Part shown: one piece after another, positions 56,734 to 63,960 of the stretch
Numbering within the stretch: the stretch's first letter is position 1
Layout of the letters: each line of letters starts with the position of its first letter
NCBI RefSeq assembly: GCF_000330885.1
Contig: NC_020062.1
Span: forward strand, 318,374-382,373
DNA from: Rhizobium tropici CIAT 899
Lineage (GTDB): Bacteria; Pseudomonadota; Alphaproteobacteria; Rhizobiales; Rhizobiaceae
DNA: 64,000 nt
Direction: 5' to 3'
Position numbers and translations under genes: made by a program
The notes under the pieces: model-generated
The model's input: only the letters and a program-made list of their open reading frames with translations
Databases searched by the model: none
What the model was told of the DNA's origin: nothing

Positions 56734-57351
56734 TCAGCGCATATCCCTGGCAAGGGCACAATAGATAGGCTGATCCGCAGCGCCGGCAAGCCGAGTCACT
56801 GCGAGCGCAATCGGCGGCAGCCGCGACCCGGTGCCAAGATGGATTGTTGCGCCATCGGTGCGGAGGAGGTTCAGCTGCGCCGCCAGATCAGGTTCGTCCA
56901 GCCCGTCGAAAATACCGCGGCCGCTGATCTTCAATGCAGCCTCCTTGGCGACCCAGAGTCGGTAACAGATCTCCAGCGCCGCTGCGCTATCGAGGGCGGC
57001 GACCGCGGCCGCTTCCTTTGGTGAGAAGTGGTCGGCGGCAAAGGCCACCGGATCGAAGCCGTTGATATCTTCGACCTCTATATCGACCCCGACAGCGCTA
57101 TGAGGCGAATAGCCCGCCAGCAGCAGATCGGTGCGATGTGAAAGCGAAACACCCAGCTCGTGATAGGGATGCCTCAGCGCCGGCCGCTCGCTTGGCCGGC
57201 GATAGATGGAAAGATCGTCCCGCTGTGTGGCTTCTCTCAAGGCTGTTTGCGCGATCTGATCACGCTCTGCTCGTCCGTCCGGCATCGGGCGGACAAGGAC
57301 GGCGATCGCATCAGCGACCGCCAGGACAACCTCAAATCGAGGGGCTGTCAT
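56734..57351 (-). CDS. 4'-phosphopantetheinyl transferase (Sfp type)
   Basis: A 205-residue enzyme that moves the phosphopantetheine arm from coenzyme A to the serine of carrier domains. The magnesium and CoA motifs are clear: SAVGVDIEVEDI (about residues 89-100), FSPKEAAAVAAL and the signature RLWVAKEAALKISGRGI. Length and motifs are of the Sfp/EntD kind rather than AcpS. ATG at 57351 is 7 bases after the stop of the NRPS gene, so it belongs to the same transcript and very likely activates its carrier Ser564. A longer frame to 57474 overlaps the NRPS and is unlikely. Confidence 0.92.
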   Translation of the reverse strand: MTAPRFEVVLAVADAIAVLVRPMPDGRAERDQIAQTALREATQRDDLSIYRRPSERPALRHPYHELGVSLSHRTDLLLAGYSPHSAVGVDIEVEDINGFDPVAFAADHFSPKEAAAVAALDSAAALEICYRLWVAKEAALKISGRGIFDGLDEPDLAAQLNLLRTDGATIHLGTGSRLPPIALAVTRLAGAADQPIYCALARDMR

Positions 57352-57358
57352 ACCGCGC

Positions 57359-60300
57359 TCACGCAGCGGCGGGGGGCAGGGCCTCTTTTTCCGAGACCGG
57401 AGCCTGCTCCTGTTCGGCTTGAACCGACTGGGCGGGAGCACCGACCCACGACGTTCCTTGCGGGATGGCCTCACCCTTCATGACCAGGGTCAGCAATCCG
57501 ATCTCGGCGAAATCGCCGACATTGGCCTCGTACAAGACGGTGCTGCCCGAGCCGATGGAGACGCCTTTGCCGATCGTGATGCGGCCGACCTTCATGATGC
57601 GGTCTTCATAGAGATGGGTCTGCGGGCAGGATCCCATATTGAGTACGGCATGATCGCCAATATGGGTGCAATCGAACTCGCAAATATCGGTGCTGTTGAT
57701 CCATGCCCCCTGGCCGATCTTGGCGCCGAAGGGACGGAGCAGCCAGGGCAGGAAAGGCGTGCCACGCAGATAGTCGAGCAGCATCTTGCTGGCGAGCCCG
57801 CCGTAGAAGACCGCGACGGCTTCGGTGCGCATCGCCCACCAGGACCACATCGGCCGGTTCATCGGCTTGTAGATGCCGATGAGCGTCCATTTGAAGGCGA
57901 CGGCGACGAGATAGAGGATACCCGAGGTCGCCAGGCCTGCGGCCATCAGCGTCCAGAAAAGGCTGCCCCAGGCACCATTGTCGATTTCGTTGGCCAGCAT
58001 GTCGGACATTGCAAGCGCCATGACGATCAGGATGGCTGTCGGCAGCGACGTATGCATGGCCTCGAACACGATGCGCACGAGACGCATGCGCAGTGGCGGT
58101 GCATAGGTGGCGGTCGCAGCCGCCTGCAGCCTCTCGCGCGTCGGGAACTGGAAGGCAGGGCTGCCGCACCAGGTTTCACCTGCCTTGACGTGCAGGGAGT
58201 CGGGCAGGCGCGTCTTGATGCCGACGAGTGAATCGCTCTCGATCACGGCACCCTGCGAGATGACGGAGGAGTTGCCGAAGAAGCAGCGATCGCCGGTCTT
58301 CAGGCGCTTGAGCACCATCCAGCCGTTCTGGATTTCCTCATCGCCGAAAATCGTCTCGTCACCGATGAAGTTGTCGCGGCCCATTTCGATCAGATCGTAG
58401 CGGCCGGCGAAGTTAGCCGAGATTTCCGTGCCCTTGCCGATCTTGGCTCCCATCAGGCGGTACCAGTTGCGCATGAAGACGGTGGCGTAGAGTGAATTCA
58501 GCGTTTCGAGCATGGCCTCGGTGGTGAGACCGACAACCCATTTGCGGAAATAGAGATTGCCGAAGATGGAGTAGCGGCCCGGCACGACGCGGGGCAGGAG
58601 CACCCATCTGAGCGCCACGACGACAGCCATGGACACGACGATCAGCAGGAAGGCGGCCGGCCAGGAGAGTGCTGCGATCATTCCCCAGGATAGGGCCTCG
58701 TCGGAGCCGGGAGCGTACATCTGCTGCACGGCGGAGAACAGATAGAAAGCCGGGAAGATCGGCAGCAGGCCGACGACGAGACTCAGATTGTAGGCAACGA
58801 AATAGGCGACGAACTGAAAGACCCGTCCGACGGTCCCAAGCTCCGGATGCGCAGGCATGTCTTCATGCTCGGCATGCCCGGTCTGGCGGGCGGGGGAGCC
58901 GTCCCAGCGGGTGTGGGCTTCGACATGCGTACCGGCGGCGATCGCCGTCAGATCGCCGATGATGGCGCCGTCACCGATCTTCACGTTATGGCCGATGACC
59001 GAGCCATTGCCGACCTGCACGCCTTCGCCGATATCGATCGTGCCGACATGGATCTCATTGCCGATGACTTCGACATTGGCAAGCTTGATCTTGACGCCGA
59101 GGCTGGATCTTGCGCCGATGCGCACAAGATCGATCGCGCCTTCCTCGAATTCGTCGATCATCGCGTCCTTGCCGACCTTGGCGCCAAGGGCGCGCATATA
59201 GACGCGGATAAGCGGCGAACCTTTGAGGAATTTCGGAGCGGTCAGCTGGACGATGCGCTGCATCAGCCAGATGCGGAAATAATAGGTGCCCCAGAGCGGA
59301 TAGACGCCTGGCCTTGTGCGGCCGATGACAAGCCATTTAAGGGCGATAACAACAAGCTTCTCGCCGAGATTGAGCGCGAGGTAGACGCCGCCGAGAATGA
59401 GGATTTCATTCCAGAGCGATGCACCGTCATCGATCAGCAGGATCGAGGCAAGCAGCAGGCCGATCCATTGCAGCGTTGCGATAGCGACGATGAAGGGCAA
59501 TACCACGGCTTGAGCGAGACCGCAGAGAAAACGCCGGCGCAACGGCACCGGTTCGAAATTCTTGCGTTCCTGTCCCGAGGTGCTCTCGGCGCGCTGCTCC
59601 AGGATCGCGGCAATGCCGCGCAGCGTACGGCCGGCATAGACGTCGCGCAGGGCGATGCTGGCGAGCAGCGGGATCTTGCGCACTTCGGAAACAAAGCGGG
59701 CCGCCAGCATGGAATGGCCGCCGAGTTCAGTGAAGAAATCCGCTTCGAAGCCGATGGAGCGCAGTCGAAGCGCCTCGGTCGCGGCCTTCAGCAGCTGTGC
59801 CTCCGTCCATGTGCGCGGCGGCTCTTGTGCCTGGGTCGGCTGGTCGGCCACCAGCGGAATAGCGGCAAGCGTCTTGCGGTCTATCTTGCCGGACGGAAGA
59901 CGCGGCAGAGAGACATGGCTATGCCAGGCGGCGGGCACCATGTAGGGCGGCAGTTTGGCCGCAAGCACAGCGCGGGCCTTGTCGCGATCGAAGCTGCTGC
60001 CCGTGGTAACGATGTGGGCGACCAGCATGTCCTCGCCATCCGGCGGGCGATGCACGACGACGGATGCGGCCTTCACCTCGGGAAGTTCGCCCACGACGGT
60101 TTCGATCTCGCCGAGTTCGATGCGATAGCCGCGAATCTTGACCTGGTCGTCGATGCGCCCGAGGAAATGGAGCTGCCCTTCTTCGTCCATCAGCACGGCG
60201 TCGCCGCTGCGGTAAAGCACCGGATCGTCATGGCCTGCGAAGGGGTTGGCGACGAATTTTGCGGCGGTCAGCTGCGGCAGGTTTCTATAGCCGGCAGCGA

Positions 60301-61402
60301 CACCCGGTCCGCCGATCAGCAATTCGCCGGTGTCACCGCGGGCAACGAGCTGCAGGTTTTCGTCGACGACGTAGGCGGTCGTGTTGGCGATCGGGTGGCC
60401 GATCGTGATCGGCCGGGATGGATCGAGTTCGGCGTAGGTTGCAACCACCGTCGTCTCTGTGGGACCGTAGGTATTGATCAGGCGCCGGCCGGCTTTGGAA
60501 AAGCGGCTGACGATCGCCGGAGGGCAGGCTTCGCCGCCGACGATGATGACGCGCAGGCTTTCGACATCGCGCTCGAGCATAGTGAGCAGGGTCGGCACGG
60601 TGTCGATGACCGTGATCTTTTCCGCTTCTAGTACATCCGCGAGCCTGTCGAGTTCGGCCATGACGGCGGATGTCGCTACTTTCAGCGTCGCACCGACCAG
60701 ATAGGGAACGAATATCTCTTCGAGCGAAAGGTCGAAGGCGACCGAAGCCTGCTGCAGAACGACATCCGATTCAACCATGCCGAGAACGTCGTTACCCGCT
60801 CGCAGATAATGGCAGATGTTCCCGTGCGTGATGACGATGCCCTTCGGCTTGCCGGTGGAGCCGGAAGTGTAGATGGCATAGGCGGGATCGTCGTGCGTGG
60901 CGACGCGCGGCGCGACGCCATCAGCGTCTTCTGCGAGCAGTGTTTTGAGGATCAGGGTCTGGCCGTCGAATTCGGGCGCGAGGGCCGCCTTTTCATCATG
61001 CGTCAGCAGCCATTTCGCACCGCAATCGGCCAGGCTAACCGCCACGCGATCGGCAGGAGCAGACGCATCGAAGGGAATGTAGGCAGCTCCGGCCTTGAGA
61101 ATCGCCAGAAGTGCGACATGTAGCTCAAGGGAGCGCTGGAACCAAAGACCGACGAAATCGCCGGGGCCGATACCGCGACGGCTGAGCGCGCGCGCCGCCT
61201 CGTCGGAGAGCCGGTCCAGTTCGGCATAGGTCATCGCCTGGTCGGTCCCGATCAGGGTCAGTGCCGTCCTGTCGGGGCTGCGGGCAACCGTTGCCTTGAA
61301 GATGTCCACCAGGGTTTCATTGCGGACGAACTCAGGCCGAATGCCGCCTGAGGAGACCGAGAGGCTGGCATTTGGGGTAATCGACGAAATCTGGATAGTC
61401 AT
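57359..61402 (-). CDS. Pls-type non-ribosomal peptide synthetase (poly-amino-acid synthetase-like)
   Basis: A 1347-residue membrane enzyme from ATG 61402. Adenylation domain: residues about 25-515, with A3 YTSGSTGKPKG (178-188), A8 GRIDDQVKIRGYRIELGEIE (415-434) and A10 Lys506. Carrier domain: LGGHSML with Ser564. Then three repeats of a transmembrane pair plus a soluble domain rich in hexapeptide turns (about 630-840, 860-1085 and 1110-1325). There is no condensation, thioesterase or reductase domain. This is the plan of the epsilon-poly-L-lysine synthetase Pls (1319 residues) and the Pls/PosA family. The pocket has Asp224 at the place of Asp235 of GrsA, so an alpha-amino acid is activated. 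Product: an isopeptide homopolymer or short peptide, by inference. Confidence 0.93.
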   Translation of the reverse strand: MTIQISSITPNASLSVSSGGIRPEFVRNETLVDIFKATVARSPDRTALTLIGTDQAMTYAELDRLSDEAARALSRRGIGPGDFVGLWFQRSLELHVALLAILKAGAAYIPFDASAPADRVAVSLADCGAKWLLTHDEKAALAPEFDGQTLILKTLLAEDADGVAPRVATHDDPAYAIYTSGSTGKPKGIVITHGNICHYLRAGNDVLGMVESDVVLQQASVAFDLSLEEIFVPYLVGATLKVATSAVMAELDRLADVLEAEKITVIDTVPTLLTMLERDVESLRVIIVGGEACPPAIVSRFSKAGRRLINTYGPTETTVVATYAELDPSRPITIGHPIANTTAYVVDENLQLVARGDTGELLIGGPGVAAGYRNLPQLTAAKFVANPFAGHDDPVLYRSGDAVLMDEEGQLHFLGRIDDQVKIRGYRIELGEIETVVGELPEVKAASVVVHRPPDGEDMLVAHIVTTGSSFDRDKARAVLAAKLPPYMVPAAWHSHVSLPRLPSGKIDRKTLAAIPLVADQPTQAQEPPRTWTEAQLLKAATEALRLRSIGFEADFFTELGGHSMLAARFVSEVRKIPLLASIALRDVYAGRTLRGIAAILEQRAESTSGQERKNFEPVPLRRRFLCGLAQAVVLPFIVAIATLQWIGLLLASILLIDDGASLWNEILILGGVYLALNLGEKLVVIALKWLVIGRTRPGVYPLWGTYYFRIWLMQRIVQLTAPKFLKGSPLIRVYMRALGAKVGKDAMIDEFEEGAIDLVRIGARSSLGVKIKLANVEVIGNEIHVGTIDIGEGVQVGNGSVIGHNVKIGDGAIIGDLTAIAAGTHVEAHTRWDGSPARQTGHAEHEDMPAHPELGTVGRVFQFVAYFVAYNLSLVVGLLPIFPAFYLFSAVQQMYAPGSDEALSWGMIAALSWPAAFLLIVVSMAVVVALRWVLLPRVVPGRYSIFGNLYFRKWVVGLTTEAMLETLNSLYATVFMRNWYRLMGAKIGKGTEISANFAGRYDLIEMGRDNFIGDETIFGDEEIQNGWMVLKRLKTGDRCFFGNSSVISQGAVIESDSLVGIKTRLPDSLHVKAGETWCGSPAFQFPTRERLQAAATATYAPPLRMRLVRIVFEAMHTSLPTAILIVMALAMSDMLANEIDNGAWGSLFWTLMAAGLATSGILYLVAVAFKWTLIGIYKPMNRPMWSWWAMRTEAVAVFYGGLASKMLLDYLRGTPFLPWLLRPFGAKIGQGAWINSTDICEFDCTHIGDHAVLNMGSCPQTHLYEDRIMKVGRITIGKGVSIGSGSTVLYEANVGDFAEIGLLTLVMKGEAIPQGTSWVGAPAQSVQAEQEQAPVSEKEALPPAAA

Positions 61403-61536
61403 GGTAACTTCTGCGGAACGAAACTCGGCACAATCAGCGTGCCATCTGCCCATGCTTATACACCCTTCAATTTGCAGCTCTCTTACGGGCGTTGTCAGTG
61501 AATTGTAATGTTGGGAAAGCTATGCTTGGTTCGCTG

Positions 61537-61550: not shown

Positions 61551-61580
61551 TGTGCCATCTCGAAAGAAGGATTGATATCG

Positions 61581-61898
61581 TTGCGCATATTCGGGCGAAG
61601 AGCCGGCTGGCCCCGCTGGCTGTCCGTTCTCTTGGTAGCGGTTCTGCTAAGCTTGCCAGGCATGGAAGCATTGGCTCGTATACATAGCAATGTTCTGGTC
61701 GAAGATGCCGGCAGCTTGCGGCCGCTACGCGACATCTATGCGGTCGTTGCGCGCGAGATGCCGGGAAAGGTGCTGCGAATCAAGCGGGTTCGCCGGGCTG
61801 GGCGTCAGGCCTATGCCGTGCGCGTGTTGAAGCCGGATGGCAAACGTGGTGATATAGTACTCGACGGCGCAACACTTGCCGTGATCGAGAGACGCTGA
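61581..61898 (+). CDS. PepSY domain protein, exported, linked to a two-component system
   Basis: A protein of about 105 residues with an N-terminal membrane or signal segment (WLSVLLVAVLLSLPGMEA) and a C-terminal PepSY-like domain (DIYAVVAREMPGKVLRIKRV then GRQAYAVRVLKPDGKRGDIV). PepSY proteins are periplasmic modulators, often encoded next to PhoPQ-like systems and proteases. TTG at 61581 is preferred, with AAGGA 9 bases upstream; TTG at 61572 would sit directly on that ribosome site. It is 2 bases before the response regulator gene and divergent from the NRPS gene. Confidence 0.8.
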   Translation: MRIFGRRAGWPRWLSVLLVAVLLSLPGMEALARIHSNVLVEDAGSLRPLRDIYAVVAREMPGKVLRIKRVRRAGRQAYAVRVLKPDGKRGDIVLDGATLAVIERR

Positions 61899-61900
61899 GA

Positions 61901-62572
61901 ATGCGCATTCTGATTGCTGAGGATGAGCCCAGTATCGTGGCGGATATGCGCCGCTGCCTGGAGGATCAGCATTATGTCGTCTCGACCGTGAGCAACGGCG
62001 AGGAAGCCTGGTATCGCGGCGATATCGAGCATTTTGATCTCGTCATCCTCGACCTTGGACTTCCTAAGCTTGATGGCCTGACGGTTCTGCGGCGCTGGCG
62101 CGCAGAACGCCGCGGCATGCCTGTCATTATATTGACGGCGCGAGACGGGTGGCGCGACAAGGTCGACGGCATGGATGCGGGTGCCGACGATTATCTGACC
62201 AAACCCTTCCGCATGGAAGAGCTTCTGGCGCGCGTGCGCGCCCTGATGCGCCGCGCCGCCGGACAATCCTCTCCGATCCTTTCCAATGGCGTGCTGGAGC
62301 TCGACACACGCCAGCGTACCGTTTCGTTTCGGGGGCAGCCGGTTCAGGTGACGGCGCTTGAATACAGGCTTCTTGCCTATCTGATGCACAATGCCGGCAC
62401 CGTGCTTTCCCGAACGCAGATCGCCGACAGCATCTATGATGAAGAGACGGAGCTGCTGTCGAACGCACTCGAAGTTGTCGTCGCGCGTCTCAGGCGCAAG
62501 TTCGACGGCACCGTTATCGAGACCCGGCGCGGCCAGGGCTATATCATCCCGCGCGAGGCGCCGCCGTCATGA
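61901..62572 (+). CDS. OmpR/PhoP-family response regulator
   Basis: A 223-residue two-domain regulator. The receiver has the acidic pair in AEDEPS (7-9), phospho-acceptor Asp51 in VILDLGLPKLDG, the T/S position in ILTARDGW and the lysine in YLTKPFRME. The C-terminal domain is a winged helix (LEYRLLAYLMHNAGTVLSRT then NALEVVVARLRRKFDG). The pattern is close to PhoP/QseB regulators. It is flanked by the PepSY gene and its sensor kinase, whose ATG overlaps its stop (ATGA). Confidence 0.94.
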   Translation: MRILIAEDEPSIVADMRRCLEDQHYVVSTVSNGEEAWYRGDIEHFDLVILDLGLPKLDGLTVLRRWRAERRGMPVIILTARDGWRDKVDGMDAGADDYLTKPFRMEELLARVRALMRRAAGQSSPILSNGVLELDTRQRTVSFRGQPVQVTALEYRLLAYLMHNAGTVLSRTQIADSIYDEETELLSNALEVVVARLRRKFDGTVIETRRGQGYIIPREAPPS

Positions 62573-63960
62573 CACCGTTCTCGCTGCGAGGGCGGTTGTT
62601 GCTGGGTTCCGTGGTGGCGATCATCGTTGCAACCTTTCTTGCGGGGGTCGGCATCAACGCCATTTCCGGACTGGCCGTCAGGGCGCTTGCCCTCTCGGAG
62701 ATAGATGAGGAGTTGCGCGTTCTGCTGGCGGCGGTCGACATAAATTCCTCCAATCAACTCTTCCTTGACGACACGCCGACGGATCCCCGCTTCGGCATTC
62801 CGAATGGTGGCTTCTATTGGCAGGTCGGCCGCAACGGCACTGTCGAGCTGCGCTCCCAATCGCTCTGGGAGCAGAACCTGCCATGGCTACGTGCCCGCCC
62901 TCGCGATGCCGGGCGAGCGACGGATATGAAAGGGCCAAACGGCAGCCGTCTTCTTGCCGTCGAGCGATCGATTTCGATCCCCTCGGCCACGGGCGATCAG
63001 ATCGTCGATATCGTCATGGCGCTCGACAACAGCGAGCTTGCGCCGGCGCGCTGGCGCTTCTTCTACGCCATGGCGCCATCTCTTGGCGTGCTTTCAGCCG
63101 CTCTCATCGTGGCTGTCATCGCTTTTCTGCGATACGGGCTACGACCCCTCAATGATCTGCGCGCAGCCCTGATGGCGGTGCAGGAGCGATCGGCACGCAA
63201 GATCACCGGTCAGTTTCCACGCGAAGTCCAGCCGCTCGTGGACGATCTCAACGGGCTGCTCGCATCGCGTGAAACGCAGTTGACACAGGCGCGTGCGCGC
63301 GCCGGCGATCTCGCGCATGGCCTGAAGACGCCACTCGCGGCATTGGAGGCGACGGCGCGCCTTCTGTCGGAAGAGGGCATGTCGGAGCGGGCCGCGGCCA
63401 TCCAGACGGAGGTCAGCCGGATGGAGGCGCAGATCAAGCGAACGCTTGCGCAAACCCGTGCGAGCCTGGCTGCCGCCCATACTGTCGGCGTCATGGACGC
63501 CAGCGCCGATCTTAAGAAGATCATCTCCGTCATGCGGCGGCTGTCGAGCGAGCGCAAGATCGACTTCGAGCTTGTGGCGCCGCCCGAGATGTGGCTGGCG
63601 ATCGACGAGGCGGATTTTGCCGACATTACCGGCAATCTGATCGACAATGCCAGAAAGTGGACGGCCGGCAAGGTGAAGGTCCGTCTGTCGCAGTTGCCCG
63701 AGCTCGAGGGCGTGGAACTGTGTATCGAGGACGACGGTCCGGGTCTGCCGGAGGATGCCGAGATGGCCTTCATTCGCCGCGGCAGGCGGCTGGACGAAAG
63801 CATCGCCGGAACCGGTTTCGGCCTGGCGATCGTCAAGGATCTGGTCGAGGCCTATGACGGCAAGCTGGCGCTCGCCCGCTCCAGCCTTGGCGGATTGTCT
63901 GTCACCGTCAATCTGCCGGTGCGACTGGTCAAGGACAAGCAGGCGGCGCTGGAAAATTAG
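62569..63960 (+). CDS. Sensor histidine kinase (PhoQ/QseC-like)
   Basis: A 463-residue membrane kinase. Segment 1 is at residues 10-33 (LLLGSVVAIIVATFLAGVGI), then a periplasmic domain of about 120 residues, segment 2 near 170-190 (LGVLSAALIVAVIAFL), a HAMP-like linker, dimerisation domain with His250 in DLAHGLKTPLAALE, N-box GNLIDNARKW, and G boxes EDDGPGLP and GTGFGLAIV. The periplasmic loop suggests an envelope signal, such as divalent cations, antimicrobial peptides or pH. Overlaps the response regulator by ATGA. The last 40 bases of the window hold nothing. Confidence 0.93.
   Translation: MTPFSLRGRLLLGSVVAIIVATFLAGVGINAISGLAVRALALSEIDEELRVLLAAVDINSSNQLFLDDTPTDPRFGIPNGGFYWQVGRNGTVELRSQSLWEQNLPWLRARPRDAGRATDMKGPNGSRLLAVERSISIPSATGDQIVDIVMALDNSELAPARWRFFYAMAPSLGVLSAALIVAVIAFLRYGLRPLNDLRAALMAVQERSARKITGQFPREVQPLVDDLNGLLASRETQLTQARARAGDLAHGLKTPLAALEATARLLSEEGMSERAAAIQTEVSRMEAQIKRTLAQTRASLAAAHTVGVMDASADLKKIISVMRRLSSERKIDFELVAPPEMWLAIDEADFADITGNLIDNARKWTAGKVKVRLSQLPELEGVELCIEDDGPGLPEDAEMAFIRRGRRLDESIAGTGFGLAIVKDLVEAYDGKLALARSSLGGLSVTVNLPVRLVKDKQAALEN

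Follow-up and report, generated by a model that had tools for sequence, protein, structure and literature searches.

What does the large synthetase gene at positions 57359..61402 of a 64,000-nucleotide stretch of Rhizobium tropici CIAT 899 (contig NC_020062.1, positions 318,374 to 382,373; referred to here as the window) make, and what turns it on? The window lies on pRtrCIAT899c, a replicon called a megaplasmid or chromid (PMC3557214). From the domains, motifs, family membership, pocket residues, gene linkage, and co-inheritance that we observed, we infer a monomer, a bond type, a polymer, a mode of regulation, and a role: the gene likely encodes a membrane-bound, single-module synthetase of the Pls/PosA family making an isopeptide-linked polycation under the control of a FeuP/FeuQ-like pair. 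The synthetase and its parts are located as follows.

57359..61402, minus strand: Pls/PosA-family synthetase of 1347 amino acids (TIGR02353, Pfam).
59861..61318, minus strand: adenylation domain, residues 29-514 (Pfam AMP-binding).
59603..59794, minus strand: carrier (peptidyl carrier protein) domain, residues 537-600, with the phosphopantetheine site Ser564 (Pfam PP-binding and motif).
57431..59515, minus strand: C-terminal polymerization region, residues 630-1324, with three repeats of a transmembrane pair plus beta-helix (TIGR02353, AlphaFold2, conserved columns).

The plus-strand frame of 57359-61402 contains stops, and the open frame is that of the minus strand, from 61402 to 57359; a second in-frame ATG further upstream, at 61453, would extend the synthetase to 1364 amino acids. 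Pfam revealed AMP-binding (residues 35-372), AMP-binding_C (432-506), and PP-binding (537-600) domains and one Hexapep stretch, corresponding to one adenylation domain and one carrier domain, with the carrier serine, Ser564, within a GGHS motif. Five adenylation core motifs were found in the protein, which we take to be those named A3, A5, A7, A8, and A10. In agreement with a preliminary description of this DNA, no condensation or thioesterase domain was detected in the synthetase by Pfam at an E value of 0.001. The NCBIfam model TIGR02353 (Pls/PosA family non-ribosomal peptide synthetase), a search that this description had proposed, matched residues 630-1324 over its full length (model positions 2-695 of 695) with 555 bits for a curated cut-off of 423.1. 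The lack of condensation and thioesterase domains and the passing of this cut-off rule out a multimodular nonribosomal peptide synthetase (NRPS) or a siderophore synthetase. The protein was the sole match above the TIGR02353 cut-off in the CIAT 899 genome, six weaker places being short partial matches. Since the frame was kept at full length without internal stops in 22 of 22 Rhizobium genomes having the synthetase (148 genomes searched), a chance open frame is likewise ruled out. Thus, the synthetase is a real, apparently intact, uncharacterized member of a known family.

Hydropathy identified three pairs of membrane helices in the C-terminal region (near residues 623-693, 861-941, and 1111-1177). 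An AlphaFold2 model of residues 610-1347, obtained from 45 sequences (pLDDT 84.9; pTM 0.86), consisted of one unit repeated three times, each made of two long helices, shorter helices, and a beta-helix. Hydropathy and the model together place three pairs of membrane helices, six in all, next to three soluble parts with the beta-helix fold, and the Pls-type layout initially proposed (one adenylation domain, one carrier domain, and three transmembrane plus beta-helix repeats) is therefore borne out. The model resembles PosA, for which Patel and Gulick describe three repeats of a transmembrane pair plus beta-helix (PMC10522769). All PDB entries listed, 60 of 68 from the profile search and 50 of 515 from the Foldseek fold search, were beta-helix proteins, comprising hexapeptide acyltransferases, gamma-carbonic anhydrases, and others, and none spans the whole C-terminal region. 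Thirty-one C-terminal columns were invariant over 18 diverse family members chosen for comparison (window included); Q1261 and H1263 were invariant in these members, and T1262 was present in at least 95% of 99 aligned rows. This conservation suggests that His1263 may have a catalytic role.

Among solved structures, the best match over the pocket region was the PosA adenylation domain; over the full length, the PDB sequences with the highest scores were linear gramicidin synthase chains, each matching with two adenylation domains. The refuting outcome named in the preliminary description, in which the protein would be most similar to an NRPS-like enzyme making some other fixed product, was not found. 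PosA, the delta-poly-L-ornithine synthetase of Acinetobacter baumannii (PMC10522769), has the same adenylation-carrier-membrane-domain layout as the window synthetase, to which an A. baumannii copy with the PosA code is 38% identical over 98% of the length. The layout of Pls, the epsilon-poly-L-lysine synthetase of Streptomyces albulus (adenylation domain structure 7wew), is also alike. In a tree of family members, the window clade grouped next to A. baumannii PosA with a support of 100. The preliminary description stated that such enzymes are studied mainly in Streptomyces; this is outdated, since the Acinetobacter enzyme was characterized in 2023 in a paper that also prints rhizobia with the pocket found here (PMC10522769). 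Genes 92.5% identical to the window gene are annotated Pls/PosA family in Rhizobium sp. CCGE531 and CCGE532. The novelty first attributed to the gene is thus overstated, both the pocket signature and close relatives having already been reported. A 96.7% identical gene is carried by plasmid record CP023000 of Rhizobium sp. 11515TR, and the available part of the announcement of that genome (PMC6256449) gives predicted NRPS clusters without a description of this one. What we add is the pocket shared clade-wide by the 80 nearest relatives, the relatedness to PosA, and the inheritance of the gene together with a FeuP/FeuQ-like pair. No paper on a characterized rhizobial product of the family was found among the matches listed in the open-licence literature, and four papers on CIAT 899 do not use the term peptide synthetase in their main text (PMC3557214, PMC5936775, PMC4782375, and PMC6436695).

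The region upstream of the synthetase is shared with three divergent genes.

61493..61508, minus strand: TTACA-N6-TGACA, an 11-bp direct repeat, a candidate regulator site only (intergenic alignment).
61572..61898, plus strand: small exported PepSY-like protein in the FeuN position, divergent from the synthetase (by position).
61901..62572, plus strand: PhoP/PmrA/FeuP-like response regulator (Response_reg, Trans_reg_C).
62569..63960, plus strand: PhoQ/FeuQ-like sensor histidine kinase (HisKA, HATPase_c).

By domains and gene order, this set has the layout of the FeuN/FeuP/FeuQ type, with a small exported partner, a PhoP-like regulator, and a PhoQ-like kinase, and it shares its gene order with FeuN/FeuP/FeuQ of Sinorhizobium meliloti (PMC12714254, PMC3616915). 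The small protein had no Pfam match, and its counterpart in Labrys matched PepSY below the cut-off. The best NCBIfam matches of the regulator were PmrA, RppA, and PhoP, all under their cut-offs, and that of the kinase was PhoQ (144 bits for a cut-off of 497); none of the 25 models listed for either protein attained its cut-off. A chromosomal set of the FeuN/FeuP/FeuQ type, given the Feu name from resemblance and gene order, is also present in CIAT 899, and the window pair is a separate paralogue of it (51% identity for the regulator and 34% for the kinase). The chromid also carries a third regulator-kinase pair of the FeuP/FeuQ-like type (locus L137, G000:C4:219000-223000), preceded by an exported protein of 173 amino acids with an end that is PepSY-like by eye. 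An acid-stress screen of CIAT 899 recovered a transposon mutant, marked AS, in a chromosomal response regulator gene with an adjacent kinase gene, RTCIAT899_RS05450/RS05455 (PMC5936775), and these could be the chromosomal FeuP/FeuQ-type set, judging from rough locus-tag arithmetic. In S. meliloti, FeuP/FeuQ signaling increases in response to the host peptide NCR247, and FeuN acts as a restraint on FeuQ (PMC12714254).

The linkage of the set to the synthetase gene was examined in relatives. Of 261 relatives, the best 80 were retained, so that the scan describes the nearest ones only; all were labelled Alphaproteobacteria, save two labelled only Proteobacteria. The PepSY-type protein, the regulator, and the kinase divergently adjoined the synthetase in 18 of 18 loci of Rhizobium (16 loci, including four isolates labelled Rhizobiales that are 92-97% identical) and Labrys (2 loci). 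Within the genus, the C-terminal domain was found in 22 of 148 genomes (E value of 1e-100 or better, a cut-off that excludes more distant family members; 82-100% identity) and the linked kinase in 22 of 148 (1e-90 or better; 84-100% identity). The two sets of 22 genomes were identical, and in each genome both genes were on one contig, about 5 kb apart. An earlier set of 61 genomes gave the same picture, with a close synthetase (at least 87% identity) in 6 of 37 same-genus genomes, that of CIAT 899 included, and a close kinase in the same 6. Among 199 genomes sampled from the family, there were three matches, namely, the CIAT 899 genome itself and two genomes of a different genus (46-47% identity). 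The tree joined Rhizobium with Labrys (support of 100), which belongs to a different family, suggesting a single gain of the regulator-synthetase block and its passage between families; with one gain of the block, the 22 of 148 genomes are not 22 independent events. A same-genus genome of the earlier set has a different Pls/PosA gene, of a kind excluded by the cut-off (genome G004, locus L138, 5797-12229; 31% identity; code DFEALGTVTK), which lies between a phosphopantetheinyl transferase (PPTase)-like frame and an aminotransferase-like frame, neither of which attains its family cut-off.

The repeat TTACA-N6-TGACA was invariant across 17 aligned Rhizobium rows, and a looser version of the pattern fits one other place in the window. 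It is not letter for letter the candidate FeuP site TTCA-N7-TTCA (PMC3616915).

Several observations weigh against the synthesis of a polycation under the control of the divergent set. The co-inheritance comes largely from one clade and involves one block of the genome. No such set was found at the other 62 of the 80 loci, which gave two short regulator matches and one short kinase match at about 30% identity. In the alignment with one Labrys locus (L052), the best score, over the repeat, was reached by 8 of 200 shuffles, and in that with the other (L059), the best score did not fall at the repeat and was reached by 101 of 200 shuffles; since the Labrys comparison gave no clear support, no conserved site is claimed. 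A PPTase relative was not found at 2 of the 16 Rhizobium loci and at both Labrys loci, and no polymer, expression, or mutant data were found for the CIAT 899 gene. In the rival explanation that fares best, the product is a diffusible antimicrobial or antifungal compound, and the two-component pair lies on the same island without taking part. An antifungal role has been suggested for the PosA polymer (PMC10522769), 62 of the 80 loci manage without the pair, and, because the kinase and synthetase genes are adjacent, their co-inheritance alone is no proof of a functional link. However, the pair is still linked to the synthetase in two Labrys genomes despite only 65% synthetase identity and a different downstream flank, and it is retained at two loci (L044 and L046) where no PPTase relative turned up. 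We regard this bystander explanation as doubtful and favor regulation by the pair.

The monomer was approached through the substrate pocket. MAFFT alignment gave the ten-residue code DLEDIGTVVK (D224, L225, E228, D267, I287, G289, T311, V319, V320, and K506). As an alignment control, the A. baumannii locus L118 read DMEHNGTVSK, the PosA code printed in PMC10522769. The window code is that of the DLEDIGTV(T/V/I)K group printed by Patel and Gulick for Archaea, Rhizobia, and Methylobacterium with an unassigned substrate, to which the window gene belongs by code; in the available part of their text, neither the gene nor a linked two-component system is mentioned (PMC10522769). The pattern DLED[ILV]G[TS]VVK was common to all 80 loci (36 DLEDIGSVVK, 26 DLEDIGTVVK, 17 DLEDLGTVVK, and 1 DLEDVGTVVK). 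The window pocket matches neither the ornithine code of PosA nor the polylysine type, which has Ala at the position of PosA M218: it is polylysine-like at eight places and PosA-like in bulk at the second, with one extra acid. The likeness to Pls stated in the preliminary description holds for family membership. Polylysine should not be assumed for a pocket unlike both the characterized lysine and ornithine codes, and a plain epsilon-polylysine synthetase was set aside because of the two differing pocket positions.

Relative to PosA, the Asp (D217), Glu (E221), and Thr304 residues are retained. PosA mutants have shown that D217 and E221 are essential, that the second code position influences substrate choice, and that replacement of Ser313 by alanine has a 183-fold cost (PMC10522769). 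A supply gene near the synthetase was sought in the 80 loci with three aminotransferase queries, aminomutases and diaminopropionate (Dap) enzymes lying outside the search, and none was found: weak matches (22-31% identity) occurred in 7 loci, the nearest about 5.7 kb from the synthetase. The flank available was at least 3 kb upstream in 58 of the 80 loci and at least 3 kb downstream in 73. By comparison, a diaminobutyrate (Dab) aminotransferase adjoins the family genes at L123 and L125, with the pockets DFECLSAVTK and DFECLSVVTK, respectively. The result for the 80 loci fits a monomer from primary metabolism. We rank L-ornithine first, at somewhat less than an even chance, because the DLED clade groups with PosA in the tree, because Leu stands for Met at the second code position, and because the aminotransferase matches are few, weak, and distant. 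L-Lysine, ranked second, would be an unlikely monomer, and Dab, Dap, or another basic amino acid together would hold a substantial minority share. Arguing against ornithine are the changes from its code (M to L, H to D, N to I, and S to V, the last at the position of PosA Ser313), the dependence of the choice on aminotransferase-only searches, a quick, midpoint-rooted tree with PosA on a long branch, and the added Asp, which could suit another cation, such as arginine.

A lysine monomer would make the protein an epsilon-polylysine synthetase in which the pocket has changed slightly. Eight of the ten code positions, including I, G, T, V, V, and K, equal those of the lysine-type control L122 (DAESIGTVVK), itself related to the epsilon-polylysine synthase 7wew (277.8 bits over 157 residues) and 32% identical to the window synthetase over the whole protein; the controls L122 and L124 differ from the window code only by Ala and Ser in place of Leu and Asp, and lysine requires no supply gene. 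However, the bulky Leu stands where lysine enzymes carry Ala, and since the PosA substitution M218A raised lysine use nearly 10-fold (PMC10522769), bulk at the second position disfavors lysine. The tree also sets the DLED clade with PosA and not with the L122/L124 group. Lysine is an unlikely choice.

Use of a cation that is larger or forms two hydrogen bonds, arginine for example, with a product that is unprecedented or is not a side-chain isopeptide polymer, would be consistent with the two acids that the code holds besides D224 (E228 and D267) and with the preference for arginine of a homologue from the Bdellovibrionales whose code is unusual in a different way (Patel and Gulick 2023, PMC10522769). 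We consider this improbable, because arginine, as a matter of general chemistry, offers no ordinary amine on its side chain for extension and because the C-terminal columns conserved across the family, in PosA-type and lysine-type members alike, are retained. A decayed or moonlighting NRPS-like relic, to which the patchy spread might point (22 of 148 genus genomes and 3 of 199 sampled family genomes), is scarcely credible for a gene that lacks internal stops in all 22 genomes carrying it, has an intact carrier serine and core motifs in the window, and keeps the conserved C-terminal columns.

For the polycation synthetase that we favor, the following mechanism may be proposed. The adjoining PPTase would put phosphopantetheine on Ser564; the adenylation domain would activate one basic amino acid and load the carrier; and the C-terminal membrane domain, with three beta-helices of the fold of acyl-transferring hexapeptide enzymes, would link the carrier-bound residue, over and over, to the amine in the side chain of another; the product set free would be a short polycation joined by isopeptide bonds. 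The divergent PepSY/FeuP/FeuQ-like set would probably turn the synthetase gene on in Rhizobium and Labrys, and the polymer would therefore probably be a regulated envelope or extracellular polycation. The roles proposed in the preliminary description, as an antimicrobial, a surface coating, or a metal- or phosphate-related polymer, are conjectural. A further proposal, which we hold to be quite unlikely, is that the DLED clade makes a polycation with a monomer unreported for the family, controlled in Rhizobium and Labrys by a dedicated FeuP/FeuQ-like pair, a type of system for which a response to a cationic host peptide has been reported. If so, the bacterium would make its own surface polycation upon envelope or cationic-peptide stress, for example, inside nodules. 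The natural role of the family is unclear beyond antimicrobial use, and the locus offers an open, motif-complete member, accompanied by a PPTase of its own and a linked pair of sensor and regulator, in a tractable nitrogen-fixing bean symbiont. CIAT 899 is a type strain (PMC6256449), is used in bean inoculants (PMC3557214), and has been subjected to transposon mutagenesis (PMC5936775); both the substrate of the DLED pocket and the physiological trigger are directly testable in this host.

Downstream of the synthetase gene lies one further gene of interest.

56734..57351, minus strand: 4'-phosphopantetheinyl transferase of 205 amino acids (PF01648), separated by 7 bases from the stop codon of the synthetase gene.

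The adjacent PPTase announced in the preliminary description is thus real (57351..56734), and it probably shares an operon with the synthetase. A PPTase relative adjoined the synthetase in 19 of the 80 loci, comprising 14 of the 16 Rhizobium loci and 5 loci labelled Devosia, Hyphomicrobiaceae, or Rhizobiales. The operon described for PosA consists of that gene alone (PMC10522769), in contrast to the window gene, with its PPTase and divergent two-component system. The flanks scanned in other genera encoded DnaJ, SDR/FabI-like proteins, chorismate synthase, fumarase, a phosphatase, and others; being housekeeping-like or generic, they say little about function.

Two other arrangements were seen among the loci. 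On a plasmid of Streptomyces sp. NBC_01527 (L123, 3686-5678), a response regulator and a sensor kinase are encoded immediately upstream of the Pls/PosA gene, which is followed by the Dab aminotransferase gene, a possible second two-component linkage. In four loci, a protein of 625-652 amino acids is encoded directly upstream of the synthetase on the same strand (L053:7858-9816, L055:5038-6987, L056:7901-9778, and L057:597-2477); it gave no family match with Pfam (L056) or NCBIfam (L053 and L056). Three of these loci (L055, L056, and L057) also have a cluster downstream of the synthetase, of which the L056 member is a prolyl-oligopeptidase.

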